NCBI GenBank assembly: GCA_004802705.1
Contig: SGPL01000709.1
Location: 1 to 14,769, forward strand
DNA length: 14,769 nucleotides
Source of the DNA: Bondarzewia mesenterica
Taxonomy: Eukaryota > Basidiomycota > Agaricomycetes > Russulales > Bondarzewiaceae
Direction: 5' to 3'
Below, in pieces: positions 1-14,769 of this stretch. The first letter of the stretch is position 1. Each line of letters opens with the position of its first letter. A model generated the notes under the pieces. That model made no database searches. It had not been told where the DNA came from and saw only the letters and a program-made list of their open reading frames with translations. Made by a program: the position numbers and the translations under genes.

Positions 1-2
1 AG

Positions 3-815
3 ACAAAAGAAGCAAAGACGAAAAGGTGGAAAATGGAGAAGCTTACTAGATATCTCGGTGAGAACGTCCCCCCCGAACTCGTTTTCCAAAAAGAGACGCA
101 GCAGATTCGCCTGGACAAGCGACTCTTACATCGCAGTCGTTCCCTCGGAAGCGCACAAAGACCCCTGGATGCGCACGAAGAGTTAACGCGAGAAGAGGAG
201 CAGTGGCTCGAAAGGCCTCTTCCACCCGAGCGTCCATCAGCGGATATGGCCTATGCATATCTCCCTCCAAAGCATGTTATCCTCCCAACACAACGTCCTG
301 AAGAGTCAAATGAAGCGTTGATACACGCACCAGACTTTCCCCCGCCTTCTCCATCTCTTTCCGGTTCGCGATCCGACACGCCTAACCCTGGACACATTGG
401 TGAAGTCCCCGTCACGGCTGGGCCCTCCTCTATAGCACCATCAGGATCAGGACCAATACCGCGGCAGACACACCTCCGTCAACGCGGCACAGCACCCCTT
501 CCGCGGTTCGCATCACTCTTTTACTCGCGCGCGCGCTTGGACGCAGATTACAAAGCTTGGATGGCAGAAGAGGACGAGGTGTGGACGTTGATGCGTCAGG
601 AAACCAACAGCGATGACAAAAAAAATGCGGGGGAGGATGCAATGCCACCACGCTCGGAGTCAAGGTCGGCAAATTTATTGGGAAGAGGGGGAGAAAGGGA
701 GAGGCTGGATGTCCCTGAGTTGGCACATAGGAGGGAGAAACGGCAGGGATGGAGCGGGGAATGGAATGCTGCCAGCGTTCAGGATGTCATCGTCAAGCTG
801 CGAGAGTTGAAGTGA
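3..815 (+). CDS. Conserved fungal protein of unknown function, 5' partial
   Basis: The frame is open from the window edge to a TGA at 813-815. The first ATG is at 33, but ten open codons precede it (TKEAKTKRWK) and run into the N-terminal motif KLTRYLGENVPPELVF, so the true start or an upstream exon probably lies outside the window. From memory, a basic stretch followed by KLxRxLGExxPPELVF recurs at the N-terminus of uncharacterised Agaricomycete proteins. The middle (about residues 90-160 from the ATG) is rich in Pro, Ser and Gly and is probably disordered. The C-terminus ends in WSGEWNAASVQDVIVKLREL, a short helical motif that also looks conserved. There is no signal peptide or membrane segment. 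A shadow ORF on the opposite strand was discounted. No function can be assigned. It converges with the zinc-finger gene that follows. Confidence 0.7.
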   Translation, partial: TKEAKTKRWKMEKLTRYLGENVPPELVFQKETQQIRLDKRLLHRSRSLGSAQRPLDAHEELTREEEQWLERPLPPERPSADMAYAYLPPKHVILPTQRPEESNEALIHAPDFPPPSPSLSGSRSDTPNPGHIGEVPVTAGPSSIAPSGSGPIPRQTHLRQRGTAPLPRFASLFYSRARLDADYKAWMAEEDEVWTLMRQETNSDDKKNAGEDAMPPRSESRSANLLGRGGERERLDVPELAHRREKRQGWSGEWNAASVQDVIVKLRELK

Positions 816-1391
816 TAGGCAAGACGCAGGGCCTTTATGCACAAGACTGAAGGAACCGTAGTCTATGCCAAGCGAGAATGGACGCTATGTCGGAATTTTG
901 GCGATGGACATCGTATACTGTGGTATCGCCTTTCTCCTGTGTCCTTTCCTTGCATCCTGAATGCCTCGATATTCCAGTCCTTACAGGCATTTTTCGAAAA
1001 TTCTATTCGATTGCGAGTAGACAAGATACGCTCGATACCCTGCACCTTACTTTAGAGATTTGTGTATTCACTCAGGCGTAAGATACCCAAGAAAATACTC
1101 ACTAATATCAGATCACATTGATGTAGAAACAAGCGACCAAAGGAGTCTCGAGAAGGAGAAGTTCGCTGGAGCATGTATGAATGATGAGAGCAGATGAAAT
1201 TGAAAAGGTCAAGCATCAGTTCGCGTAAATGTACAGACAATTTTTGCCTGTTGAAGGCCGCGAATTCTCAATTACAGAACAAACAAAAAATATGAAAAAG
1301 AGCAAATGAGGAATTGGTCCGTTACCGCCCGACTCCCTCATCGATGGTTCCCTCACAGCCATCCCCACTATGTACAGACCCTTCCTGTCAT
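816..1391. other. Intergenic region between convergent genes
   Basis: This stretch holds the 3' flanks of two converging genes. The small ORFs in it (60-72 codons) overlap one another on both strands and have no recognisable domain. I see no RNA gene or long repeat. Confidence 0.6.
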
Positions 1392-3109
1392 CTACTGCGC
1401 GCTGGGTTTCGTTGCCGATGAAAGCCCATGCATCCGACGCTGATGGGCAGCGAGCGAGTCCTTGCGAGTATAAGACTTGTTGCACAGATCGCACTTGAAA
1501 GATGCGGGTTTGTGCGCCAACGCTGTCTCGAAGTGTCGCCCGAGGTCCTTCTCCCATCGATAGCCTGTCCCGCATTCGATGCACCGGTAAGGCCTCTCTT
1601 CGTCGTTCTCGCTGCGCCCCTTCTTCGTCGCCCCGTCAGCTATCTTGTTGGCCTCGCTTCGGTTGGCGAGCGGTGCAGTGCTCGGCCCTCCACGCGACAT
1701 CTGCGAATTGTTGGGGGGAAAACTCATCTACGAGATTATCATTCTCGTAGATGGTCTCCTTCGATAAGTAGTTGTTTCGTCGGAGGGCATCAGCTGCCGC
1801 CGCTTGCCTTTCGACCCGAGGCCTAATAGCCCTCAAGCCCAGGGAGGCGACAGCCTTGCCTTCCATGATCATCCGCCACGCTGACAGATACGTCTCACCA
1901 ATCTCCGTCCCCTTCCTCGCGATCTTGGGTCTCCTCTCTTCCACCTTGTTGGATTCCACCTCCTCGAGCTTCCGCTTTGATCTGCCTCGCGATCGTGAAG
2001 ATGATGCGACCGGCTCATCCTCTCTGGGAAAGATTCTTGTGGGGTATGCGGGCGGCTGTGGTGGTAGGACCGGCATTTGGAATGGCGGTGGGCAGCGAGG
2101 GGCGGGCATTGAGACGGACGTTATATAGGAAGGGTCGGGGTAAAATCCCCCCGGCGAGTGGACGGGAAGGCGGGGAATGGGTGTGGGCATGGGTACGGAC
2201 GTCCCTTCAGTATAGAGGTTGGGATTGTCGCCGATCGCCAGATGAAATTGCGACGCGCCGAGAGCAGCGGCGACAGGATTGACGTCACCCCCGTCGTACG
2301 CCTTAGATGATGTGTAGCCTGGGTGGCTTTGACCCTGACTGTCATAGAACGTTGGCGGCATGCCAAGCTGTTGGTGGGCCTCAGGATACAGTCGGTGCTC
2401 GCGAGCGGGATGCCGGCCCACCGGTTGTGCTGAGCTCTGGAAGGTAAGAACGATGAGTGGCATCTTCTTCCAAAGAAAAATTGATGAGCGCACGGTGTGG
2501 GCGTGCCGCGGTGGCTCTTCGCCAAATCCGACGTTGAGAGGGCCTTCGGTGAATTCGATTATGGGGTTAAGAGAACTTTCCTGCATGGACGTATTCACCA
2601 AATCCCCGAAGTTCTCTGGATGGATGAAAGTCTGAGGATCCTGCATTACGATGAGGTGAGCATCATTGTCTGTCAATAGAATATGGAATGATACTCACAA
2701 CGCTCGGATGTTGGAATTGAGAGCTAGGATTTGTGTTGGGAAACCACATCTCTTCCTGTCCCTGTTCGATATTTGGGACGAAGGAATCTCCTTGTGGCAA
2801 TGCATAGACGGCATCATCCCAGTTGTCTGGGAGGATGAATTCAGAGGCCTGAGATTCCTGCGAAGGCAAGTGAGGTGAGTGGCGTCGCGATCCTACGACA
2901 AAAATTGAATTTAAATCTACCAGCGAGCTTGGGTCCTGCCAATTCACATAGCTAGACTCCATGGTGGGACGACCGTCGTTATGTTCAAACCCGAGCATGA
3001 AAGAGTCGTCTAGCATGAGTTCCGTTGGGAGTTCGTCGTGAGTCTCTAAAAGAGCCGAGGCCGCTGAGGCCTGAGGGAGATGTAGCTGGAAAGTGGGGTC
3101 GTAAGACAT
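1392..3109 (-). CDS. C2H2 zinc-finger transcription factor, five exons
   Basis: Proposed exons on the minus strand are 3109-2921, 2857-2699, 2640-2494, 2436-1732 and 1700-1392, giving about 502 residues. Introns of 63, 58 and 57 nt have GT...CAG ends; the first and third are also open in frame, so intron retention cannot be excluded. The first 400 residues are low-complexity, rich in Pro, Ser and Gln, with a basic SRGRSKRKLEE stretch that could be a nuclear localisation signal. The C-terminus carries two C2H2 fingers: C440-x2-C443-x12-H456-x6-H463 and C470-x2-C473-x12-H486-x4-H491. Such proteins bind DNA in the nucleus; the target here is unknown. The last junction is odd. The zinc-finger frame is +1 to the upstream exon, and the only good GT/CAG pair spans just 31 nt (1731-1701), inside an inverted repeat. 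An alternative acceptor (AAG) gives 88 nt. The family call is firm; the final splice is not. Confidence 0.82.
1725..1753. repeat. Perfect 11-bp inverted repeat with 7-nt loop
   Basis: CATCTACGAGA at 1725-1735 and TCTCGTAGATG at 1743-1753 are perfect reverse complements separated by TTATCAT. The hairpin lies in the coding part of the zinc-finger gene, and the candidate 5' splice site (GTAGAT on the minus strand, first base at 1731) is inside its stem. Confidence 0.9.
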
Positions 3110-5399
3110 GGGCGACCGTACACAGTAGAGAGTTCAGGTAGTTTTTTTTTCGAACGCAAATGGGATGGGTGAGTGGGTCCTTGTTGGTTTTTTCTGTTCT
3201 CACTTCGCACACTTTATATCACCCAGATAGACTGCCCAAGAGTTTTTGACTCCGCTCAGTTTGCGTCCGCATAGTGCCTCCATGTCGGACCCATGCTCTG
3301 CCGTATACGGATACCGATGGCGAGACGGTCCATACGTTATCTCGCAAGCGAGTCTCTGCTTCTCTTCGGATGCTCTGATCTCACGCGCGAGTATTTTTTT
3401 TGGGGTCAATATGATGCAGTGCAAAACGTGTTTGCCATCTTCTGCTGCGCGTCTTTCAGACTTTCACTCGGCGTATCGACCATATCTGGCCTTGTTTTGT
3501 TTTCATGATAGGTTGGTAGGTGAAGAAGCATCTGAGCATCGTCGATGGCGGATCTGCTCAGCATGCCGCTCAATCCCTTTTGTCGAGTGGTTTATGATCA
3601 CAGATACATAGCATGCCGCCGTTTTCGTACTTTCACACAATACCTCGGCGCACTCATATCAACAGCTCTGAGTGGCATTGTGTATCCTTTTTTCTTTCCC
3701 GCCTTTGTATGAACTTTAAAAGAATCCCCAGACGGAATCTAGACTTGGGACATGGCCATGGAGCGCAAGTCAGTGCCACCGACAAGTTGACCGAAGCTCG
3801 AGGCGTAAGTACGTTTTTACATGCGCGTTGTATTGTACTCATTGACGCGCGTGGCTTCAATGGCGAAGATCCGGATTATCGCAACGCCTTCAATGTGATG
3901 GCCTGTATTCGGGTCCAATGATGCGTGAGTATTCAGCTGCCCTGGCATCCGTGTCCGAGGTCTGATTTCACAAGTCGACTCGTCTGCAATTCACACCTTG
4001 CCATATGGGTCAAATGTTATAAACGCTGGCAATCGGGAGGCCCCTCTTTTTCCCGCCGAGGTCTGTGCTTCGTCCTGCTTCGTCATGTCTCTTGTATTTC
4101 ACAATACACCAATTGAGCAAAATGCAGACCAGTAGATTGGTCCGCGGGCTGGTCATAGACTTCTCGCTGTTGACTGTTCCTCAAATCGCACCCAATCATG
4201 ACGACCCTTTTCATGCGAGTGCTGCCGTTGGGTCACAAGCTCTCGAGTATGTACCACAGTACAGAGTATCTTTCTATGCAAAAAAAGTTAACACACTTGG
4301 GATTATTCCATTTGGATACTGGTTCGTGACCTGTGCGGTGAACTTTGTTACGACTGCCGGTGGCTTTCTTCAACACACTCACTCACAATACGTGCGATTC
4401 GTCCCACAGATCGTCCAGCGTCCAGAGCGCACCTCGACGTCAGAGAAAAAGACTCGGCAACTTGGCACAGCCGCTGTGTGGACGAGAGCCGCATTCTGTG
4501 ATCGACACAAAGGAGCTCTACTAATTATCTCGAGCCTGGAGCTTCGAGCCTCCTTGTTTTGGCGACAAGAGACGCACCTCCGAGTTTCCGTCACTGTATA
4601 ATAGGAGCGTCGCCTCCCACACTGTGTTAATACAACCTTCCTCCCTCGCTCATTTTCTGACGATGATCCGTCATTGATGTTACGTCTGTCGTCGGCGTGG
4701 TCCGAGATTAACGCGCCCCACTCACATTCGGAGGTATGACTCTGCGTTGCTTTTGGGATGAATGACTGTGGACACCAGAAAGTATTATATCATCCGATTG
4801 GCTGCCTGAGGTGATCCATATCGAAGTAATATCTCACTGTGTTTTCTTGTTTCAGTTCTGTATTATAATGGATCGCCCTCCTGGAATGACGCTGCGTGTC
4901 CTTGGACGCTGAACGGACGACTCTGACGGGTCGATGGTCGCAATGAGGACTACCTAAATGCCAACTTGTTCAACGCCTCTCGCCTGGAATGAGATGGTGG
5001 TTACGGGTGCTGTTGTTCTTATGTCAACCCATTTACCATTGCACGGGCCCTCTCCTGTTGGGAGAATTGGACAAGTCATGCCAGTTATTCGCACTGCGTT
5101 CTTTATGCGAATCTTTCAAACGAGTAGAATAAAACCTGAAAGTGAGCATATCAGAATAACGAACCGTGACGGATGTCGTGCAAGAGGAGCGTCAAGTTGG
5201 ATCGGGTTGTGGATCTTCTCCAATATTACCTTATTTGGTTACCCCGACATTTAATCCACATCGAGTTTCGTCCGAACTTGAATTCGTTTCCTCTGTTCTT
5301 TTTTTTTTTCATGTGGATTTTTCAGCCGTCCNTTNATTATGCCGGCAGCCTACATAATGTCTCCCACACATCTTTCTTTCTCCCCTTCACTCCCGTTCC
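3110..5399. other. 2.3-kb stretch without a supported gene
   Basis: The ORFs here reach at most 178 codons (4065-4601, +). They have no recognisable motif, and frames change often on both strands. Splice-like GTAAGT and GTGAGT sites occur (for example 3809 and 3925), so fragments of a multi-exon or decayed gene may exist, but I cannot connect them into a product. Two Ns lie near 5332-5335. No tRNA, rRNA or array repeat was seen. Confidence 0.5.
3213..3218 (-). promoter_or_regulatory. Candidate TATA box of the zinc-finger gene
   Basis: The minus strand reads GATATAAAGT about 105 nt upstream of the proposed ATG at 3109. A pyrimidine/A-rich leader follows. Position and sequence fit a TATA element, but a six-base match is weak evidence on its own. 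Confidence 0.3.
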
Positions 5400-5917
5400 A
5401 TGGTTAATGTCCAGTCGACGCTGGGCGCGATCTTGGTCGGATGCCTTCTGGCTGTAGCGTACGTTCTCATTTCTTGTCGCTATGTGTCCTTCTGTCAGGC
5501 CTGATTAATGATTGCCGTCAATACCAAGGCTGTCGGGCCTCGTCTCCGCCCAGACAGTTATTTACTTTTATGTCTATCCTCATGACCCGCCACGCATCAA
5601 ATGGACCGTATGCAAACTCTCGTGACTATCTTGAACACTTTGAAATCATTGACACGATCGCCCAAAAAGGTCTTCACTGTTTGGTGAGCTTAATAGAGAT
5701 CGTCTTCTTCTCCATTCCTATGTCCTTACGTTGTGACAATACAGGGCTCTGAATGTAATACACGTCGTCTTAGTAGTTGCTGCGACCTGGAACTATATCA
5801 TTGGGAACTACGGAAATGCAGAGATAGCAGATCGTATAGCGATGTGAGCTTCTTGGAGTTTGATTCAACTAGCGCAACTGATTTACCGTTGGCATGCGAC
5901 TTAGTCCCATCGCGGTA
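5400..5917 (+). pseudogene. DUF6534-family membrane protein, N-terminal part only
   Basis: Exons 5400-5458, 5529-5607, 5670-5683 and 5745-5843 join in frame. Introns are 70, 62 and 61 nt, with GTACGT, GTATGC and GTGAGC donors. The product begins with MVNVQSTLGAILVGCLLAVA and continues with LSGLVSAQTVIYFYVYPHD. A second hydrophobic helix follows (ALNVIHVVLVVAATW), then YIIGNYGN. This order (STLGA.L.G.L.., then SG...QT.IYF..YP.D, then W.L...H......W.Y...NYGN) is the start of the DUF6534 proteins common in Agaricomycetes, integral membrane proteins of unknown role. Family members usually have about 300 residues and several more helices. Downstream of 5843 a possible 61-nt intron leads to IPIA (about 5905-5917), after which nothing hydrophobic or family-like follows. 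I therefore read this as a truncated gene or pseudogene. The first intron's acceptor (AAG at 5528) was chosen because it restores the family motif. Confidence 0.7.
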
Positions 5918-6268
5918 TGTCATTCTCATTCTTTTCACAATTCCGTCGGCGTATCATGTCTGTAATTGGGCGCCACTGCAATATCACAAGGATGGCACTC
6001 ATCCTCACTCATTCCAGGCAAACCGAGTCAAGCACGCTGATTTCTCACGGGCGGTAGGGAGAGCACCTGAAATGAGCTGGAAGAGGAAACTGATGGTCAG
6101 ACTGAACGCCGTCTCGGCGAGAGTCTTTCTTTGCGCTGAGAGTACATGAAATGACTGGGATACACACTGGTTCATACGTGATAGTATAATTAGCAAAGAG
6201 TCTCTATGAAAGTCAGATGAAGTGTATCGGGACAGGATCATCATCGAGGAATGTGAAAGGCAGTTGCA
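5918..6268. other. Spacer between the DUF6534 remnant and the F-box-like gene
   Basis: A plus-strand frame stays open to 6149, but it is polar and unlike the missing C-terminal half of DUF6534. Nothing else is recognisable. Confidence 0.4.
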
Positions 6269-7861
6269 CTACCTCTTCCCAAAATGAACTGTCCAGATCT
6301 TCGCGTCCACCCCTGTTCTGTCCAAATCTAAGTCCATGCGTTCTCCTTCTCCCACCGTGCCATACTCAGCTTGGCGTCTGGACCAAACTGAGAGCAACCT
6401 GTACAGACGCTGATTGAAAGAGCGGGTTACTAGCTCGAGTAGCAATGTTAGGTGCTTCAAGGATAGCAGCGCAGAGCCGATCGCCCGGACAGCGTCATTG
6501 AAGGTACTGGCCGAAATTTCGCGAGCTTGCCTCCAGTCAGAGATACTCGTACTCCGTTGACCGTTGACTATCTTCAGGGCCCAATAGACTCCAAAGGATG
6601 CGGGGATGGAATATGTACCAAGTCGGTGATCTTCAAACATAAGAGGGACCATGAATACAAGGCTGATGGGATCAGGGTTAAGAGACGCACCGGGTCAAAA
6701 ACAACCGTTGATAGTGCCTTGACCCCTGAAGAATCGAGGAATAAGTTGAGATTGCGAAGGCGAGGAGAAAAACGAGGTATCTTGGCAAAAAGTTCGATGC
6801 CAGTGACGCCGTTTCTTCACCCTTCCAATTCCCACGCAGTATAGATTCCCAGATGATAGCTGTTCCAAAAATCCTCCGGTAGGTCCATATCCAGATTCGT
6901 TTCAACGAAATAAGGGGAAGGTGTTCAGGGCGGAAAGCAGCGCAGCAAGCAGATCGTCAGAGCCAATAATAGTCGAAAAGGTAATCTGCGAAAGCTGACG
7001 GTGGTCCGGTAGGAGAGAGAGGATGACAGGTAGAGGGAGATTGATGCATGTAAGATTCGGGAAAAAGGATGCTTCACTGATACAAAACTTTCGCGCTGTT
7101 TGCCGAGCGTCAGAGACTGGAGATTTTGGAAGGCGATCGCCAATTCTGGAACCGACACAGGATAGAGGTCCGCGCATAATTTCCATACGTTCGGAAAACG
7201 AATGCTTGATCTGGCGAAGTCGAATCAATCGACTTGAGAATATACCTTTAGGCCCCTCAGCGTTTCCGCGTTTTCTGAGAGGAGATTTTGAAGGATGGTA
7301 CGCGTGCTTCGTATTTTGATTTGTCAAAGAAGTGAAGAAGTATATGAATTTGATAGTCAATGCTTGAAGACCTTTGATAGGGCGCAATCCCAATGTGGCG
7401 TCCAGCCCGATCATGAGGTCCACCGGCATGTAATAGGGTGAAACCGGGGACGCAGAGAGGAGGTCTGTAATCATCATGAAGTACGAGAGGAGATGTACCG
7501 GAGTCACCAAGCGCAATCGAACGCGTATTCCGTGCACCCTGAAGAAACTTCGGCGTAAGTCCACGACAATCCATTGACATAGCGCGCAGTCGCCAATCCG
7601 GATTGAAGGCAATATGCCTTATACAACCACAGGGATTGCACTTGTCGACAAATTTGCAGAAAGCAATGGCGCGCTTCTGATTCTGAAGGCAAACGGACTT
7701 CACGGTCAATGGTCGTATGCTGGCGGCTGCCAAATGAGAGTCATCCCAAAGGCTCGAACAGAGTGACTTTAAAGTAGTTTGAGAACATCATAGGCGATAT
7801 CATCGCTCAACCTTGGAATGGCTGCCGTGAGTGCTGGATGGTGGAACGTGAGAATGGCCAT
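6269..7861 (-). pseudogene. F-box/LRR-like protein gene, frame-disrupted
   Basis: An ATG at 7861 opens MAILTFHHPALTAA, followed by IPRLSDDIAYDVLKLL, a good F-box start. A TAA then interrupts, and one base out of frame the reading continues as LKSLCSSLWDDSHLAAAS and LTVKSVCLQNQKRAIAFCKFV. Further leucine-rich segments lie in different frames: GLRPIKGLQALTIKFIYFF (near 7360), PELAIAFQNLQSLTLGKQ (near 7110), FFPNLTCINLPLPVILSLLP (near 7040) and FSPRLRNLNLFLDSSG (near 6740). This resembles the large, fast-evolving F-box families of Agaricomycetes, whose products act as substrate adaptors of SCF ubiquitin ligases. I found no clean GT-AG introns to reconcile the frames, so several indels are likely: either real decay or sequencing errors. 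The 3' limit at 6269 is the end of the last plausible frame and is uncertain; the part below about 6580 may not belong. Confidence 0.55.
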
Positions 7862-8321
7862 TTCGATGCAAAATCAAGGTATATTTTGAGCTCACCACGA
7901 CTGCCTGCGGTATGTGCGAAAGAGTGTCAAACGATCCGGACGGACAACCACTTGAATTGAGATCGTTATTGCATCCTGGATCATATAGATCCAAGATCGT
8001 CGAAGAAATGCCACAGTTTGCTCCCGAATACATCGCAGCCTTGCATGAAAGGGATTGAAGCCCTGCCAGAGCGACTCGTCGGAAAGGCTCGAAAGTCCAA
8101 CACCAAGCGGCTTTGAGCTACGCTATCTTTAGTTCCATGATAAGAAGATCCGAGTCATCCGACGTACCGAGTTTGTCTAGACTTTTCCCTCGCATTCGTC
8201 ATGCATTTGCCCCACAGCACGGACACGCATTGATTTTTATGTGCAGATATCGCCAACGTGCTCGAAAACCTAGTGACTGGAATTTGTTTTATAAACAAAG
8301 ACGCAAGATACGATGTGCTTT
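7862..8321. other. Spacer between F-box-like gene and kinase
   Basis: A minus-strand ORF (8033-7800, 77 codons) starts with ATG but overlaps the start of the F-box-like gene and has no recognisable domain. The rest is the 3' flank of the kinase gene. No other feature is supported. Confidence 0.4.
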
Positions 8322-9042
8322 TTACAAGGATAACCACGGGTGGTTCAGGAGTTGAGAAGCTGTCGCTCGCTCTGCCGGCTGTAGATGAAGCATTAACTTC
8401 AGGAAATGCTCCAAATGAGGTCGATCGTCCGGCTTGACTCTCAGAAGATCCAAAATGTCGTGCAGGCGCAATTCGACGTCGCCACTCACATTCTTGAGGC
8501 GTCCTAATCCACGACAAAGAATCAGCAGGACGCCGGTAGCGCGTGCGGTAAGTGAAATGACAGAGAAACAAACCCTGCTGATCAAAATACTCATGCGTGC
8601 GCTCACCCTTCGCGAGCAGATCCGGAGGCCACCCCTCATCCAGATACTCTGCCATTTGCGACAACATATCAACATCCTTAGTTAGAACACCCTGCTTATC
8701 TGCCCGTGGTCTGAAAAGAATCTTTCCAGTGATCATTTCGAATACCTATCACGGCCAGAGGTGAGCGGATTTCAGACTACGAGTTCTGAGCAAACGTACC
8801 AAGCACCCCAGATTCCAGATGTCCACACTCTGTGACCAGCCTGCCCGAATAAATACTTCTGGGGCTCTCAAATTATATGGCTGGATGTTGTCTGTACGCT
8901 TATCGTCGAGGAAGTTTGCTTGAAACGAAGATCCGGTGAGCGATCTTATGACCGGAACGAGCAGAAGCGATGCGGGACAAACCACTTCCAAAGTCAAGCA
9001 GTTGCACTGACATCTCCGCAGATGTCCAAGAATTAGGGATCT
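8322..9042 (-). pseudogene. SRPK-like protein kinase, C-terminal half, truncated at the retroelement junction
   Basis: Four exons join in frame: about 9042-8983, 8918-8800, 8745-8574 and 8503-8322. The introns are 64, 54 and 70 nt; each has a GT donor, with CAAG, TAG and TAG acceptors. The product reads NLKIPNSWTSAEMSVQLL, then DFGSANFLDD (DFG motif) and NIQPYNLRAPEVFIRAGW (activation segment and APE motif). It continues with SVDIWNLGCLVFEMITGK (subdomain IX) and ends FLKLMLHLQPAERATASQLL-NHPWLSL-stop. The IQPYxLRAPEV and DIWNLGC pattern fits the SRPK-like serine/threonine kinases that are expanded in Agaricomycetes. Everything N-terminal of the DFG region is missing: glycine loop, catalytic lysine and HRD aspartate. 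The reading frame runs straight into TTAGG repeats at 9043-9052 and then element sequence. Without the N-lobe it cannot be an active kinase. Truncation by chromosome breakage is inferred. Confidence 0.85.
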
Positions 9043-9052
9043 TTAGGTTAGG
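9043..9052 (+). repeat. (TTAGG)2 at the host-retroelement junction
   Basis: Two perfect TTAGG pentamers sit between the kinase fragment and copy 1 of the element. The host side reads ...GGATCT just before them. They are in the G-rich orientation expected for a strand whose 3' end points right. Confidence 0.9.
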
Positions 9053-9872
9053 AGGAGTGCGAAGCACGACGAACGGGAATTCGTAAGTGAAGAGGCTGGT
9101 AGTACTAACAAAAGCTCGCTATAAGGCAAGACTTAGGTTTCGACTGGAGTCTCTTCAGAGTCTACCAGGGCAGTATATAAGGGAGGANACATTAGGGTAG
9201 GTAGCTGGGTTCCAAACGNGCTATCTACAGCTTCAGTCAGTGGCATTTCCACTGACTGAAAACTAATGAGTAATGGACGCGGGGCCAGGCCCACGCGAGA
9301 CATTTGCCATTGGCTGATAAGCAACCATATGGCACCGAATCTATTTTCAGAGGACGTGGACCCCACGCTGTCATCCAATAGACCATTCTAGATTACAATA
9401 CGACTTATTAATACGGAGAAGAAGTGGGTCACTACCTTAAAAGGTGAAGCACATGATAAGAAGGCCGCGAATCACGGGTATTAGTCATGATCCGGGTGAT
9501 CGGCATCTATTCTTAGTTGTTCCGTTCCGTCCCGATCGGCTAGCTCGGCCCGAAGGGCCAGGCCAGTTCCGCCGGCATGTTCCGCGGGCGCTAATTTCGC
9601 TTAGTCAGCAAGGTCTTATAAAAATCTCTCAAGTCTTTCGACCTGTTACTGCACGTGATCTAGTCACGTTACAAGTCACGTGACAGGGGTCAACGTGNCT
9701 ACNNNGGTNATNGAGTTAACTCCCGATTNAACGCNNCCTATAATGNCGTNACNAGGCCGCNATNGCAAGGNNTNAGGNNGCGNCANCANAGGGANGATAA
9801 TTTCNGNTGATCGACGNANNTGNCTTGGNAGNAANTNGTAGCTCCNGTANGNCCACAGCANTNAGTTCNAAG
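9053..9872 (-). mobile_element. Penelope-like element copy 1, 5'-truncated (3' end only)
   Basis: This copy aligns with the first 0.82 kb of copies 2 and 3, beginning AGGAGTGCGAAGCAC. It contains the element's 3'-terminal region in antisense on the + strand, including the ribozyme, the GGCCCGAAGGGCC hairpin (9547-9559) and the CACGTG cluster. The match to copy 2 can be followed through CCTATAATG and GATAATTTC into the N-rich stretch. It ends near the equivalent of 10703, short of the reverse transcriptase ORF. Loss of the 5' part is typical of incomplete reverse transcription. The exact breakpoint is hidden by Ns. Confidence 0.85.
9096..9168 (-). ncRNA. Type I hammerhead ribozyme, copy 1
   Basis: On the element sense strand the core boxes are CUGAAGA (9158-9152) and GAAA (9141-9138). 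Between them stem II is GAC/GUC with a UCCA loop (9151-9142). Stem I pairs CUGGUAGACU (9168-9159) with AGUACUACCAG (9106-9096), ten base pairs with one bulged A. Stem III closes with A-U and C-G, then a 2x2 internal loop, then AAGU/GCUU (9134-9131 with 9115-9112). The predicted cleavage is after GUU, between 9107 and 9106. Copy 3 differs at 9134/9112 by a full compensatory change. Hammerheads are known in the terminal repeats of Penelope-like elements, including fungal ones. Activity here is inferred. Confidence 0.78.
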
Positions 9873-9930
9873 TTAGGTTAGGTTAGGAGGAGTGCGAAGC
9901 ACNCANAAGCAGGANCTTGTAAGTNAAGAG
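9690..9930. other. Low-quality sequence with many Ns across the copy 1/copy 2 junction
   Basis: Dozens of single Ns occur here, and the first 50 bases of copy 2 also differ from the other copies in ways that look like base-calling error. The TTAGG run at 9873-9887 itself is clean. Order and spacing of copies 1 and 2 depend on this weak join. Confidence 0.9.
9873..9887 (+). repeat. (TTAGG)3 between copies 1 and 2
   Basis: Three perfect TTAGG pentamers lie between the truncated 5' side of copy 1 and the 3' end of copy 2. The orientation matches the other two junctions. Confidence 0.9.
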
Positions 9931-9931
9931 N

Positions 9932-10006
9932 CTGGTAGTGACTAACAAAAGCTCGCTAGTAAGGCAAGACTNAGGTTTCGACTGGAGTCTCTTCAGAGTC
10001 TACCAG
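9932..10006 (-). ncRNA. Type I hammerhead ribozyme, copy 2
   Basis: This is the same fold as in copy 1: CUGAAGA (9996-9990), stem II 9989-9980 and GAAA (9979-9976). The stem I strands are CUGGUAGACU (10006-9997) and AGU-CA-CUACCAG (9943-9932), with two bulged bases instead of one. One stem III base (9972) is N. The extra bases may be sequencing errors in this poor stretch. Confidence 0.65.
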
Positions 10007-10489
10007 GGCAGTATATAAGGGAGGAAACATTAGGGTAGGTAGCTGGGTTCCAAACGCGCTATCTACAGCTTCAGTCAGCGGCATTCCCACTGACTGAAAG
10101 CTAATGAGTAATGGACGCNGGGCCAGGCCCACGCGAGACATTTGCCATTGGCTGATAAGCAACCATATGGCACCGAATCTATTTTCAGAGGACGTGGACC
10201 CCACGCTGTCATNCAATAGACCATTCTAGATTACAATACGACTTATTAANACGGAGNAGAAGTGGGTCACTACCTTAAAAGGTGAAGCACATGATAAGAA
10301 GGCCGCGAATCACGGGTATTAGTCATGATCCGGGTGATCGGCATCTATTCTTAGTTGTTCCGTTCCGTTCCGATCGGCTAGCGCGGCCCGAAGGGCCAGG
10401 CCAGTTCCGCCGGCATGTTCCGCGGGCGCTAATTTCGCTTAGTCAGCAGGGTCTTGTAAAAATCTCTCAAGTCTTTCGACCTGTTACTG

Positions 10490-10585
10490 CACGTGATCTA
10501 GTCACGTTACAAGTCACGTGACAGGGGTCACGTGACTACAGCGGTGTGGGTTAATTCCCTATAAAAGCCCCCTATAATGACGTAA
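10490..10585 (+). promoter_or_regulatory. CACGTG cluster with TATAAAAG and TGACGTAA, copy 2
   Basis: CACGTG occurs at 10490-10495, 10515-10520 and 10529-10534, embedded in TCACGTGA-like palindromes. TATAAAAG follows at 10560-10567 and a TGACGTAA bZIP-type site at 10578-10585. E-boxes about 30-70 nt before a TATA box in the rightward direction look like a promoter antisense to the reverse transcriptase. CACGTG is palindromic, so a role in sense transcription is equally possible. Factor identity and activity are inferred. Confidence 0.4.
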
Positions 10586-10897
10586 CCATGCCCAGTTAAG
10601 GGTTTAGGTTGCGCACCACAAGGACTATAATTTCGTGATCGACTCTTCTGCCTTCTGCGCTACTAATAGCACCTTAAGGTTCACACCATTGGTTCCAGCG
10701 AGGCCCCTCAAGGGCTTTGCCTACCAAAGGGTAAGGTTCGTTCAAACGTAAGGATGACGTGCCCATTCAAGGGCTATCAAACAAGAACGAGGCACGAGGG
10801 AGTGCCCAGCTTGTTCCTTAGTTATAGTGACTACACTTGTGTTCTAGCAAAATGACTTGCGTCAAGGAACACGTGTCCGAATGTACTCTACGTTAAG

Positions 10898-11003
10898 TAA
10901 GAGTTAAGTACGTTAGCGATTAGGCTAGGTTCGAATTAGGTCTAATAAGTTAGTTAAGTTATTAGGGCCAGATAGTAAGGGTTAGGTTGGGGTTTTGAAT
11001 TCC
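10898..11003 (+). repeat. Degenerate TTAGG-like tract next to the ORF stop, copy 2
   Basis: This region is dense in near-matches to the junction pentamer: GATTAGGCTAGG, AATTAGG, TTATTAGGG, AAGGGTTAGGTTGGGG. The tract lies just downstream of the reverse transcriptase stop in the sense orientation. It may be eroded telomeric sequence captured in the element. Confidence 0.5.
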
Positions 11004-11043
11004 AACCGCCTTGCCCAATTACTAATCCGAATTCCATTGTAAT

Positions 11044-13132
11044 CTACCAATCATTAAAGTCGGCATTGGCGATAATATCGTCGTTGCTCGGTGATTCAAG
11101 CATTACTTTTTTAAGTGATGATATAATATCGAACAGATTGCGACCACGCTTTCTGCTCACTAACCATCTTCTATCACAGAATCCCACGTGACGNACGTCG
11201 AGGACTTTCACAATCTCCAACATGTTAGACCCAGGAATACTCCTTACTAGGCCAGTTTCCACGAGCGGTCCTCTTAGACTTGAGGCAGGCGTCCCAGCCC
11301 CTTCCATCGCATTTGCATCACCCTCAGGTGACCCAGGCTCATTGGCAGTTTCCTGCGTTCGCGGGGTGTCCGCTACTTGCCGGTATCTCGCCGCAGCAGG
11401 CCCCGAAGGGCCACCTGATACATTTGCTAAGGTCGGGGTTATGGAAGCTTTCCCACCCCAGAGGTCGTCCAAAGACCGCTGAACCGTGTCCGCTGGCTTC
11501 GCTCGAAGCGTTACCTGTTCCTGCATGAGGGGACGTTGCCGTACCCCGCTGAAACGTCTCGCTTGGTTGTCCCAGAATACTGCTAAACTGGAATCCCAAG
11601 ACTCTGTGATATTCGTGCTGAATTCTTTAATGTCGAATCGCAACCANATGGGGTTATAGTGTGTCTTTAGGACGAAAACGTCAACCGGGGCTTTTTGCGG
11701 CTCGTCAAGTCGCTTTTCCCATCGTTTCGTCATATTGTCCTTAGTCCACATTTTAATCATATCGATCGGGTACCCTCGNCCNGCATANAGCTCTCCAAGC
11801 TCNTTNACNGCGGCGATGTAGTGTTCTGGTTTACTACTTAAGGTAGCCAATCGACTCATCTCACCGATGTAAGTTCCTTTCTTTACATCTTTAGGATGGT
11901 GAGATGCCCATGGTATGCGTTCTTTGTGGTTTAGCCTCTTGCGATACGGCAAGCTTTCGACCTTCTTAGTGATTGGGTCTAAATAAAGCAAGCTATCCAG
12001 GAATGGTGTGTTATATTCACTGGCTATCCACTCTAATTCTACGTCTTCGTATGATATGCGCTTAGCGATACTAAGCGCTTCTGCTTCATTATGAGCATAA
12101 ACCACACCAATGACGTCGTCAATGAAGCGCGCGAAGAAAGGCATTTCGTGCTTAATTACTTCATCTGACGCAAGGATTTTCTCTTCAAAGTAGGCACCAT
12201 AAAGGTTGGCCAAGTCGGGGCTGCAAGCAACTCCCATGGCAAGGCCCTTCTTTTGAAGGAAAGTTTCGTCTTGAAAATCTATAATCAAATCCTTATTAGC
12301 AAGGTTGAGGCATCTTTTGAATAGATGTATTTCCTCTTGAGAAATTTCGTGAGCGAGTGCCCATGCTTTGTACCACTCAAAAACAATATCCATGCACTTG
12401 TCAGCGGGGATATTTGGGTAAAAGGCGACAATGTCGCCCGATACAATGTATTTCTTCCTTGAAGGATCTAGTTTCAATTTACTTATGCGTTGTGCAAGGT
12501 CCTTACTTCCTTTAAGGACGTAAGGTCGCTCCGCGAGGAGCGGCTTCAACTGTTTGCTTACATACTTAGCAGCGGGTCCCTGCGCGCAAGAGTGACAAGG
12601 CACTATAGGACGCATTTTAGTGGGTGTCTTATGAATTTTAGGCACGCCATAAAATACTGGCACTTTAGGCTCTTCAAGCCGGGACTCGGGGATTTTACTC
12701 CGCAAGAATTTTTCTAGCTGCTCGTTGTTGAGGAACTTCTCCGTGAAGTCAGCTGCCTCTTCAACTTTGGTACGTGTGCGTTCAAGTATAAGCTGGCGTT
12801 CAGCTGCACTAATTTTAGTGTAGTTGTTTGCGTCGCTCAGCAGTAACTTGCTATTCTCTATGAACCATTTCCGGGTGACTACAGCCGCGCCCAGATTTTT
12901 ATCTGTAGGAGTGACGATATAATCGTTCTTCAACAGGTACTCCTTGACCTCGGTCAGCCACACCAAGCCGGTGTCTTTAGATGAGGCTTTTATCGCGGGT
13001 ACAAATTTTTCAACATAGTTGTCGATGTACTTCTTCCCTTGCGAAAGACCGAGTTCGAAATAGGCATCTTGCAAATCCGCCGTCTTTGCGACGTGTGGTA
13101 ATGCGTAGTCAGGATCATAGAGATCTTCACTC
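11044..13132 (-). CDS. Penelope-like reverse transcriptase, no GIY-YIG domain, 5' partial
   Basis: The frame is open from the (TTAGG)4 junction to TAG at 11046-11044, about 695 codons. No ATG exists before the conserved region; residues below count from a TTG at 13074. DKNLG (58-62) corresponds to the N-terminal DKG-type motif of Penelope-like elements. The polymerase shows FYGVPKIHK (141-149) and MRPIVPC (154-160). Motif A is GDIVAFYPNIP with Asp214, motif B is GLAMGVACSPDLANLY (277-292), and motif C is FIDD with Asp319 and Asp320. FLDSLL (358-363) and a basic thumb region (YRKRLNHKERIPWASHH) follow. All catalytic aspartates are present. After about residue 500 a Pro/Gly/Ala-rich linker leads to a conserved C-terminus (GFCDRRWLVSRKRGRNLFDI) in place of the GIY-YIG endonuclease. 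Ns at 11647 and 11779-11810 leave a few residues undetermined. It should copy its RNA onto free 3' ends, here chromosome ends. Confidence 0.93.
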
Positions 13133-13152
13133 TTAGGTTAGGTTAGGTTAGG
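13133..13152 (+). repeat. (TTAGG)4 between copies 2 and 3
   Basis: Four perfect TTAGG pentamers separate the truncated 5' side of copy 2 from the 3' end of copy 3. Read on the element sense strand they put an in-frame TAA just upstream of the reverse transcriptase frame. Confidence 0.93.
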
Positions 13153-13195
13153 AGGAGTGCGACGCACGACGAACGGGAATTCGTAAGTGAAGAGG

Positions 13196-13268
13196 CTGGT
13201 AGTACTAACAAGAGCTCGCTGTAAGGCAAGGCTCGGGTTTCGACTGGAGTCTCTTCAGAGTCTACCAG
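13196..13268 (-). ncRNA. Type I hammerhead ribozyme, copy 3
   Basis: CUGAAGA (13258-13252), stem II 13251-13242 and GAAA (13241-13238) are as in copy 1. Stem I is identical (13268-13259 with 13206-13196, one bulged A). In stem III the outer helix is GAGC/GCUC, where copy 1 has AAGU/GCUU. The pair 13234/13212 is G-C here and A-U in copy 1, and 13231/13215 is C-G where copy 1 has U-G. Predicted cleavage falls between 13207 and 13206, 54 nt before the TTAGG junction. This copy lies just upstream of the copy 2 ORF and could make the 5' end of a copy 2 transcript. Confidence 0.8.
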
Positions 13269-13751
13269 GGCAGTATATAAGGGAGGAAACATTAGGGTAG
13301 GTAGCTGGGTTCCAAACGCGCTATCTACAGCTTCAGTCGGCGGCATTCCCACTGACTGAAAGCTAATGAGTAATGGACGCAGGGCCAGGCCCATGCGAGA
13401 CATTTGCCATTGGCTGATAAGCAACCATATGGCACCGAATCTATTTTCAGAGGACGTGGACCCCACGCTGTCATCCAATAGACCATTCTAGATTACAATA
13501 CGACTTATTAATACGGAGGAGAAGTGGGTCACTTCCTTAAAAGGTGAAGCACCTGATAAGAAGGCCGCGAATCACGGGTATTAGTCATGATCCGGGTGAT
13601 CGGCATCTATTCTTAGTTGTTCCGTTCCGTTCCGATCGGCCAGCTCGGCCCGAAGGGCCAGGCCAGTTCCGCCGGCATGTTCCGCGGGCGCTAATTTCGC
13701 TTAGTCAGCAAGGTCTTGTAAAAATCTCTCAAGTCTTTCGACCTGTTACTG

Positions 13752-13847
13752 CACGTGATCTAGTCACGTTACAAGTCACGTGACAGGGGTCACGTGACTA
13801 CAGCGGTGTGGGTTAATTCCCTATAAAAGCCCCCTATAATGACGTAA
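13752..13847 (+). promoter_or_regulatory. CACGTG cluster with TATAAAAG and TGACGTAA, copy 3
   Basis: CACGTG lies at 13752-13757, 13777-13782 and 13791-13796. TATAAAAG is at 13822-13829 and TGACGTAA at 13840-13847, with the same spacing as in copy 2. This copy lies about 620 nt upstream of the copy 2 ORF, so it could act on either strand. Confidence 0.4.
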
Positions 13848-14149
13848 CCATGCCCAGTTAAGGGTTTAGGTTGCGCACCACAAGGACTATAATTTCGTGA
13901 TCGACTCTTTTGCCTTCCGCGCTACTAAAAGCACCTTAAGGTTCACACCATTGGTTCCAGCGAGGCCCCTCAAGGGCTTTGCCTACCAAAGGGTAAGGTT
14001 CGTTCAAACGTAAGGATGACGTGCCCATTCAAGGGTCATCAAACAAGAACGAGGCACGAGGGAGTGCCCAGCTTGTTCCTTAGTTATAGTGACTACACTT
14101 GTGTTCTAGCAAAATGACTTGCGTCAATGAACATGTGTCCGAATGTACT

Positions 14150-14265
14150 CTACGTTAAGTTTAGAGTTAAGTACGTTAGCGATTAGGCTAGGTTCGAATT
14201 AGGTCTAATAAGTTAGTTAAGTTATTAGGGCCAGATAGTAAGGGTTAGGTTGGGGTTTTGAATTC
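14150..14265 (+). repeat. Degenerate TTAGG-like tract, copy 3
   Basis: This is the counterpart of the tract at 10898-11003, nearly identical apart from a small change near 14160. It sits just downstream of the copy 3 ORF stop in sense orientation. Confidence 0.5.
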
Positions 14266-14306
14266 CAACCGCCTTGCCCAATTACTAATCCGAAATCCAT
14301 TGTAAT

Positions 14307-14769
14307 CTACCAATCATTAAAGTCGGCATTGGCGATAATATCGTCGTTGCTCGGTGATTCAAGCATTACTTTTTTAAGTGATGATATAATATCGAACAGA
14401 TTGCGACCGCGCTTTCTGCTCACTAACCATCTTCTATCACAGAATCCCACGTGACGAACGTCGAGGACTTTCACAATCTCCAACATGTTAGACCCAGGAA
14501 TACTCCTTACTAGGCCAGTTTCCACGAGCGGTCCTTTTAGACTTGAGGCAGGCGTCCCAGCCCCTTCCATCGCATTTGCATCACCCTCAGGTGACCCAGG
14601 CTCATTGGCAGTTTCCTGCGTTCGCGGGGTGTCCGCTACTTGCCGGTATCTCGCCGCAGCAGGCCCCGAAGGGCCACCTGATACATTTGCTAAGGTCGGG
14701 GTTATGGAAGCTTTCCCACCCCAGAGGTCGTCCAAAGACCGCTGAACCGTGTCCGCTGGCTTCGCTCGA
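14307..14769 (-). CDS. Penelope-like reverse transcriptase C-terminal tail, copy 3, partial
   Basis: The last 154 or so codons of the same ORF as copy 2 are seen, ending in TAG at 14309-14307. They comprise the Pro/Gly/Ala-rich linker and the basic C-terminus (CDRRWLVSRKRGRNLFDII). Compared with copy 2 I see a single amino-acid difference in the readable overlap (ASSLKG for ASSLRG). The catalytic domain would lie to the right of the window. No endonuclease domain is present at this end. Confidence 0.9.
   Translation of the reverse strand, partial: RAKPADTVQRSLDDLWGGKASITPTLANVSGGPSGPAAARYRQVADTPRTQETANEPGSPEGDANAMEGAGTPASSLKGPLVETGLVRSIPGSNMLEIVKVLDVRHVGFCDRRWLVSRKRGRNLFDIISSLKKVMLESPSNDDIIANADFNDW

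Follow-up and report, generated by a model that had tools for sequence, protein, structure and literature searches.

Endonuclease-deficient Penelope-like elements, Coprina and its relatives, were reportedly described by Gladyshev and Arkhipova in 2007, and a 2014 abstract by Cervera and De la Pena is said to report hammerhead ribozymes in fungal Penelope-like elements, the fungal versions folding as monomers. Terminons reach 40 kb with extra open reading frames and their hammerheads are called minimal (PMC7761336, PMC7229834). In PAc of Anolis the RT (reverse transcriptase) initiates at an internal site 3' of the hammerhead; elements with a mutated hammerhead still insert normally, the chief substrate being unprocessed RNA (PMC11167929). 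A review calls the role of the hammerhead in Penelope-like elements a mystery (PMC7761336). Here we analyze a 14,769-nucleotide (nt) stretch of the basidiomycete Bondarzewia mesenterica (contig SGPL01000709.1 of assembly GCA_004802705.1, positions 1 to 14,769), referred to as the window; it corresponds to contig C670 in an assembly of 33.1 Mb and 844 contigs. The genome is marked as fungal by 15 Zn_clus matches, a domain that none of 14 control genomes matched. The window very probably holds three 5'-truncated copies of a Penelope-like retrotransposon that has no endonuclease; they form a subtelomeric array, and each has a predicted type I hammerhead and a tail of about 60 nt. The predicted motif, its conservation while helices are exchanged, the tail, the telomere-like junctions, the truncations and the array can all be read from the sequence itself.

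The sense strand of all three motifs in the window is the minus strand, and sequence reading combined with a regular-expression search identifies each as a complete three-helix type I hammerhead with an open-ended stem I. In copy 3 (13268-13196, predicted cut 13207/13206), stem I is formed by 13268-13259 with 13206-13196 and encloses the CUGAAGA box (13258-13252), stem II (13251-13249 with 13244-13242), the GAAA box (13241-13238) and stem III (13238-13208). The motif of copy 1 spans 9168-9096 with the predicted cut at 9107/9106, and that of copy 2 spans 10006-9932 with the predicted cut at 9944/9943, one N in stem III and a CA bulge in stem I. The first-pass annotation had described both boxes, a stem II of three base pairs (bp) with a UCCA loop and a GUU directly 5' of the cut for every copy, and we find all of these in all three, with stem II reading GAC/GUC. 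The 2x2 internal loop that it placed near the cleavage site is likewise seen in the window motifs, in stem III. Its 10-bp stem I is present in all three, with the bulged A in copies 1 and 3 and a CA bulge in the middle copy. As for the compensatory changes it reported in stem III between copies 1 and 3, the change from A-U to G-C is clear, while the proposed 'U-G to C-G' depends on the register because the predicted fold of copy 1 bulges the U and pairs the next C with that G. A stricter descriptor, which required the boxes, stem I, the 3-bp stem II and the two basal pairs of stem III, yielded three minus-strand and no plus-strand matches in the window and none in 300 shuffles. Using a looser descriptor we recovered the same three motifs, no match in 500 shuffles and none in 54,834 bases of flanking DNA, most of it outside the element, from the same genome. 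At the motif level this confirms the observation that the window copies carry type I hammerhead ribozymes, whose self-cleavage is predicted.

Further copies are present across the genome. A 378-nt query from the 3' end gave at least 19 matches, all beginning within its first 5 bases and thus in the tail, and a tail pattern located 19 3' ends of the subfamily to which the window copies belong (type 1), none for the reversed pattern and one stray with 2 mismatches in C29. The hammerhead is complete in 16 of these 19 ends, with intact boxes in every one of the 16. The three incomplete ends are a C473 copy truncated within the motif, a mini-copy in C346 and C504:21608, which leaves its contig inside the tail. 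The window copies are 90-98% identical to one reference copy. Hammerhead boxes follow the consensus CUGANGA/GAAA, in which position N7 is free. Together with four copies of a divergent subfamily the genome holds 20 complete motifs, and 19 of them have the type I boxes (CUGANGA, GAAA, A15.1-U16.1 and H17 5' of the cut). The bulge of stem I is A or CA and loop II reads UCCA, UUCA, CCCA or CCA among the genome's motifs; these are the two parts between which a loop contact might form. Substitutions in relatives that break the core had been named beforehand as evidence against a ribozyme; only one of the 20 complete motifs has such a change, which favors a hammerhead.

To count variable columns, 12 of the 16 complete type 1 copies were aligned; of the other four, two were excluded because their upstream sequence is truncated, while C504 and C702 did not enter the set. 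Variation was absent from the 5' strand of stem I (0 of 10 columns) and from GAAA (0 of 4), and was restricted to N7 in the core box (1 of 7). Stem II with its loop varied in 2 of 10 columns, UH in 1 of 2 and the 3' strand of stem I in 4 of 12, a count in which the C190 row is misaligned owing to its longer stem III. The corresponding values were 21 of 97 upstream, 26 of 32 in stem III and 24 of 52 in the tail. Stem III is thus the most changeable part yet remains a hairpin, as in CUGCUUG/CGAGCAG and UUGCUUG/CGAGCAA, and it is very different in C190, C702 and C758B.

The divergent second subfamily (type 2), represented by C571, encodes an RT 77% identical over 607 amino acids and carries a hammerhead at the equivalent place in the 3' untranslated region (UTR). 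Its motif reads UUGGAAC-CUGAUGA-GCA-UCA-UGC-GAAA-UACUG...CAGUAUU-GUUCCA, with a stem III consisting of a 6-bp base that carries two further hairpins. All four copies found (C571, C324, C509 and C702) have the hammerhead and the core is intact in three. The C702 copy reads AAAA instead of GAAA and is expected to be inactive. Blastn returned no alignment between the type 2 hammerhead region and the window's. We compared pairing at core-adjacent positions, using six distinct types and 8 pairs, with the broken C702 copy excluded. All 48 cells were paired and 5 of the 8 pairs had changed on both sides, values that none of 500 shuffles attained; slid versions of the alignment reached at most 36% paired cells and no both-sided change. 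Counts for further pair types were attained by 31 of 500 shuffles and give a weaker signal. A functional hammerhead maintained by selection would be expected to exchange the sequence of its three helices while preserving its core, as seen here. The first-pass proposal of a hammerhead in each copy of a fungal Penelope-like element is hence supported by 16 complete copies of one subfamily and four of the other, their helices co-changing around a constant core. A chance resemblance kept by descent would fit the high identity of the window copies to a single reference, and we consider it scarcely credible: the hammerhead of the second subfamily differs in all three helices, the descriptor found nothing in the 500 window shuffles, and the loose version gave 1 match in 1000 shuffles of the 5.1-kb C571 stretch, a descriptor that had been loosened after the C571 motif was known.

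The motifs are borne by an RT-coding unit. Copy 2 (9883-13137, minus strand) is 5'-truncated and 98% identical to the C758 copy over 3250 columns. Its RT reading frame (11044-13137, minus strand) has 697 codons with RVT_1 and an FIDD motif, the N-terminus being lost by the truncation. Copy 3 (13148-14769, minus strand) leaves the contig end and includes the C-terminal part of the RT frame (14307-14768), and the 5'-truncated copy 1 (9048-9872, minus strand) is N-rich in its 5' part and aligned only to 9815, so that this end is approximate. The frame of the C294 copy is 896 amino acids long. Pfam scores for RVT_1 were barely above the cut-off (29.7 and 29.9 versus 29.6), and at E<=1 the C294 frame matched RVT_1 only and no GIY-YIG, with a missing N-terminal part possible because the copies may all be 5'-truncated. 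NCBIfam gave weak matches to other RTs, far below the cut-offs; a PDB sequence search returned nothing meaningful and a viral_contigs scan no match, and an AlphaFold model from the single sequence (predicted local distance difference test 37.5) was too poor for a structure search. The RT may be that of a Penelope-clade element, judging from the architecture and from the stretches YGVPKIHK, GLAMGVACSPDLAN, FIDD, FLD and HHP, which we take to be typical of Penelope-like RTs. Copies are arranged head to tail and truncated at many 5' points. The longest is 4.1 kb, as confirmed by two copies, or 4.7 kb if the C758 copy reaches the next one, and all may be truncated; C758:6500-9900 contains no further frame of at least 200 amino acids. 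A non-autonomous retrozyme-like repeat in place of an RT-coding element would account for hammerhead-bearing tandem repeats of the kind seen in retrozymes and for the many short copies. We regard it as very improbable, as the copies are truncations of one RT-coding unit (896 amino acids in C294, 697 codons in the window) and the short ones appear truncated at random points.

Telomere-like repeats mark the junctions of the array. On the plus strand, (TTAGG)4 at 13133-13152 joins the 3' end of copy 3 to the truncated 5' end of copy 2, (TTAGG)3 at 9873-9887 lies at the 3' end of copy 2 and (TTAGG)2 at 9043-9052 at the 3' end of copy 1, where it joins the DNA on the left. Elsewhere, 13 of the 19 type 1 3' ends carry at least CCTAACCTAA and 6 carry only CCTAAC(C) before other DNA, while all three visible type 2 ends have CCTAACCTAA. 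All copies on 10 of 14 contigs have their 5' side towards the nearer contig end; the exceptions are 5 of 23 copies, on the other 4 contigs, which face the farther end. TTAGG, to our knowledge an unusual telomere unit for a fungus, is probably the unit of this one as read from a single contig end, since C473 ends in 19 units and four TTAGGG units occur nowhere in the genome. The TTAGG repeats concerned lie at C473:22776-22870, with others at C571:11774-11853.

Downstream of the predicted cut, the tail of copy 3 (13206-13148, minus strand) begins with 11 nt that form the 3' strand of stem I and ends in a hairpin (13157-13167) followed by CUCCUCCUAA. In eight aligned type 1 copies, the tail from the cut to the element's CCUAA is 59-63 nt long and closes with a small hairpin, after which comes CUCCUAACC. 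The arms of the terminal hairpin vary between subfamilies and still pair (GUGC/GCAC, GGGC/GCCC and GGCGUC/GACGCC). The tail is kept in all 22 visible 3' ends, 19 of type 1 and 3 of type 2, the fourth type 2 end lying in an N gap. In 21 of the 22, sequence extends past the predicted cut, and at C504:21608 the contig stops within the tail. From this retention of the tail at every visible 3' end it follows that the RNA copied onto chromosome ends was not cleaved at its own 3' hammerhead, or was religated. One way of restoring the site would be a circular template: the hammerheads would cut both ends of a unit, ligation would close the RNA into a circle like that of a retrozyme, and the RT, starting at CCUAA, would go round through the restored cut site. 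Such circles would account for the intact cut sites in the copies, and a cut placing CCUAA at the 5' end of the unit RNA would then be harmless. Yet no copy in the junctions inspected enters a second round without TTAGG or TAACC in between, and read-through RNA that was never cut offers a simpler account of these observations, so we think circles improbable.

We propose instead that the RT of the element would extend the TTAGG 3' overhang of a chromosome end on an RNA paired to it via the CCUAA stretch. Copying would start just past the terminal hairpin, proceed through the tail, the ribozyme and the RT gene until it stops, and telomere repeats or another copy would then be added. Transcripts reading through the array would be cut by each hammerhead, freeing the downstream unit from the upstream one and leaving it with a leader of about 60 nt. 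The copied RNA would escape cutting, and the simplest reading is that cutting may serve the read-through transcripts. Protein-dependent cutting, circles and an off-switch in the tail are alternatives.

Several results weigh against the telomere-adding Penelope-like element with working hammerheads. The first-pass annotation had expected an Rfam covariance-model match and there is none in the window, either at the models' own thresholds or at E<=10. Across the window, a 93-base cut and relatives, the Rfam hammerhead models detected 0 of the 10 motifs given (out of 20) at gathering or E<=10, in scans run without a positive control, that is without any hammerhead known to Rfam. An RF00163 search of the fungus's own genome (72 candidates scored) was empty, a blank that is uninformative because all control genomes were equally silent. 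The Rfam failure says as much about how far the models reach as about the ribozyme, and with 10 of 10 motifs missed such ribozymes may be under-counted in fungi. A covariance model built from six type 1 copies recovered each of the 16 complete motifs together with the truncated one of C473, and none of three divergent-subfamily copies in the loci searched. The RNAfold check suggested by the first-pass annotation came out in favor for copy 1, whose minimum-energy fold is hammerhead-like, and not for copy 3, where a rival fold is better by 1.6 kcal/mol; for both, the gain over shuffles is modest (z -1.8 and -2.4). Among nine type 1 sequences the minimum-energy fold is hammerhead-like for copy 1 and C346, near-hammerhead for C190 and a rival structure for the other six. 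The fully constrained hammerhead has an ensemble weight of only 0.0001 to 0.04, in calculations with ViennaRNA, which omits the non-Watson-Crick contacts of the hammerhead core. Six of seven type 1 sequences folded modestly better than shuffles (z -1.2 to -2.4), with C702 at -4.4. In the second subfamily, C571 without its tail has a hammerhead-like minimum-energy fold (z -2.0), and with the tail C509 and C702 keep such a fold while C324 prefers a rival. The both-sided changes between subfamilies may represent few events on one branch, because the six rows hold essentially one deep split. The Penelope-clade placement draws on motifs and architecture, the telomere unit comes from one contig end, and none of the 16 readable 5' ends falls exactly on the predicted cut.

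Some of these points would also suit a retired ribozyme, a fold inherited and recognized as structure, for instance as an RT-binding element at the 3' end, that no longer cleaves. Rival folds win the prediction for most type 1 sequences, templates are uncut or religated, and lizard PAc hammerhead mutants insert normally, with the RNA cleaving only with protein (PMC11167929). Set against this, 19 of the 20 complete motifs retain intact catalytic boxes and the core box varies only at N7, whereas a purely structural role would leave the other core bases free to change. Retirement therefore appears rather unlikely, though of some weight, and we retain the reading in which the hammerheads would be working ribozymes.

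The tail could act as a built-in off-switch by pairing with the catalytic core, a suggestion from complementarity and predicted folding that we hold doubtful. Right after stem I the tail is complementary to the core (CUCUUCA versus UGAAGAG). In five copies with U at N7 the tail reads CUCAUC, so that the free core base appears to covary with it. For three sequences with the tail GUCUCUUUA, the ungapped tail-core complementarity exceeds all but 0.5-1.3% of shuffled tails. Against an off-switch stand the folding test, in which just one of 10 distinct sequences fell below 5% (11 of 300), eight others gave 17 to 96 of 300 and C758B gave 156 of 300, and the U7 copies, for which tail-core pairing is predicted at 7-11% only. 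In addition, two type 1 tails place C opposite A7, the divergent subfamily's tail-core complementarity is nothing special relative to shuffled tails (0.62-0.66), and the N7 change may be a single event. Were the off-switch real, full-length template RNA would be protected from cleavage until copied onto a chromosome end and RNA leaving the fold would be cut; a 66-nt copy in C346, with its 5' end 2 nt from the cut, would then be the footprint of a cut RNA.

This copy (C346:31228-31293, L046 4229-4294) consists of little beyond the tail and lies between telomeric repeats. It is the one readable 5' end near the predicted cut, 2 nt upstream of it. It is a possible footprint of a cut RNA, or of an RT stop at stem I. 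Eleven of the 16 readable 5' ends lie within the first 500 nt, for which we estimate about 0.1 near-cut coincidences. We considered 5' ends as cleavage footprints and set the idea aside: with one of 16 at 2 nt and none on the cut they provide no proof.

Other features surround the ribozyme. Just upstream of it in copy 3 is a TATA-like stretch, TTATATACTGC (13270-13280, minus strand), of putative promoter function; it reads TATATATACTGC in some copies and TATAAATACTGC in the divergent subfamily. The stretch followed by ATACTGC or ACTGC is common to both subfamilies, whose surroundings no longer align. One might speculate that transcription could begin within the ribozyme from a promoter here. 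The 3' UTR also has a hairpin (9231-9262 and 13331-13362) some 60 nt 5' of the hammerhead, reading CAGTCAGTGG...CCACTGACTG in copy 1, and most aligned copies have it. A subtelomeric repeat beginning TAGAGTTATTACTGACC / TAGAGTTATTACTGACCTC occurs in C294, C346, C190, C447 and C504 (L040 from about 6221, L046 from 3736 downward, L047 2528, L050 3300 and L051 3333). It comes after truncated copies in four contigs and before one in C504, and looks non-coding, judging by the frames in two of these stretches. Finally, C347 (L044 2544-3595) holds an internal 1.05-kb piece of the element within other DNA, which has no 3' end, contains one in-frame TAG and is not explained by telomere addition.

Among the papers listed by literature searches, none treats this case in its title or abstract. 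The element fits a kind already described, as a further member with a three-helix type I hammerhead in a fungal, telomere-associated, Penelope-like carrier. Similarly to the endonuclease-less elements of fungi and protists, Coprina and its relatives, which include a fungal clade (PMC3846280), it has an RT without GIY-YIG, a location at the ends of chromosomes, 5' truncations after which telomeric repeats follow, and a fungal host; here the telomere unit is TTAGG, and the likeness is one of architecture. With the Athena and Terminon elements of bdelloid rotifers (PMC6431247) it shares a 3' hammerhead beside reverse-complement telomeric repeats, 5'-truncated head-to-tail arrays and an RT without endonuclease. 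In contrast to Terminons, its longest copy measures 4.1 to 4.7 kb, well short of giant size, and no extra reading frame of at least 200 amino acids was found in C758:6500-9900; helices I-III are all developed, and a hairpin tail separates the ribozyme from the telomeric stretch. Retrozymes also consist of tandem hammerhead units (PMC4918200, PMC7229834), but they are non-coding and exist as circular RNA (PMC7229834), whereas the element here encodes an RT and sits at telomeric repeats.

Hammerheads of animal Penelope-like elements are likewise of type I with a tail downstream (PMC7761336, PMC6155905). Helix III is usually absent from them, and they may work as dimers or together with protein (PMC7761336, PMC6155905, PMC11167929), whereas helix III is long, branched or bulged here and, being well developed, makes these motifs suited to monomer assays. 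The uncut template agrees with PAc of Anolis, in which uncut RNA is the main template. That the RNA reaching the chromosome end is uncut there, or religated, is a constraint that makes the question of the hammerhead's role testable. Overall, a single genome holds two subfamilies whose hammerheads share the catalytic core and hardly any helix sequence.

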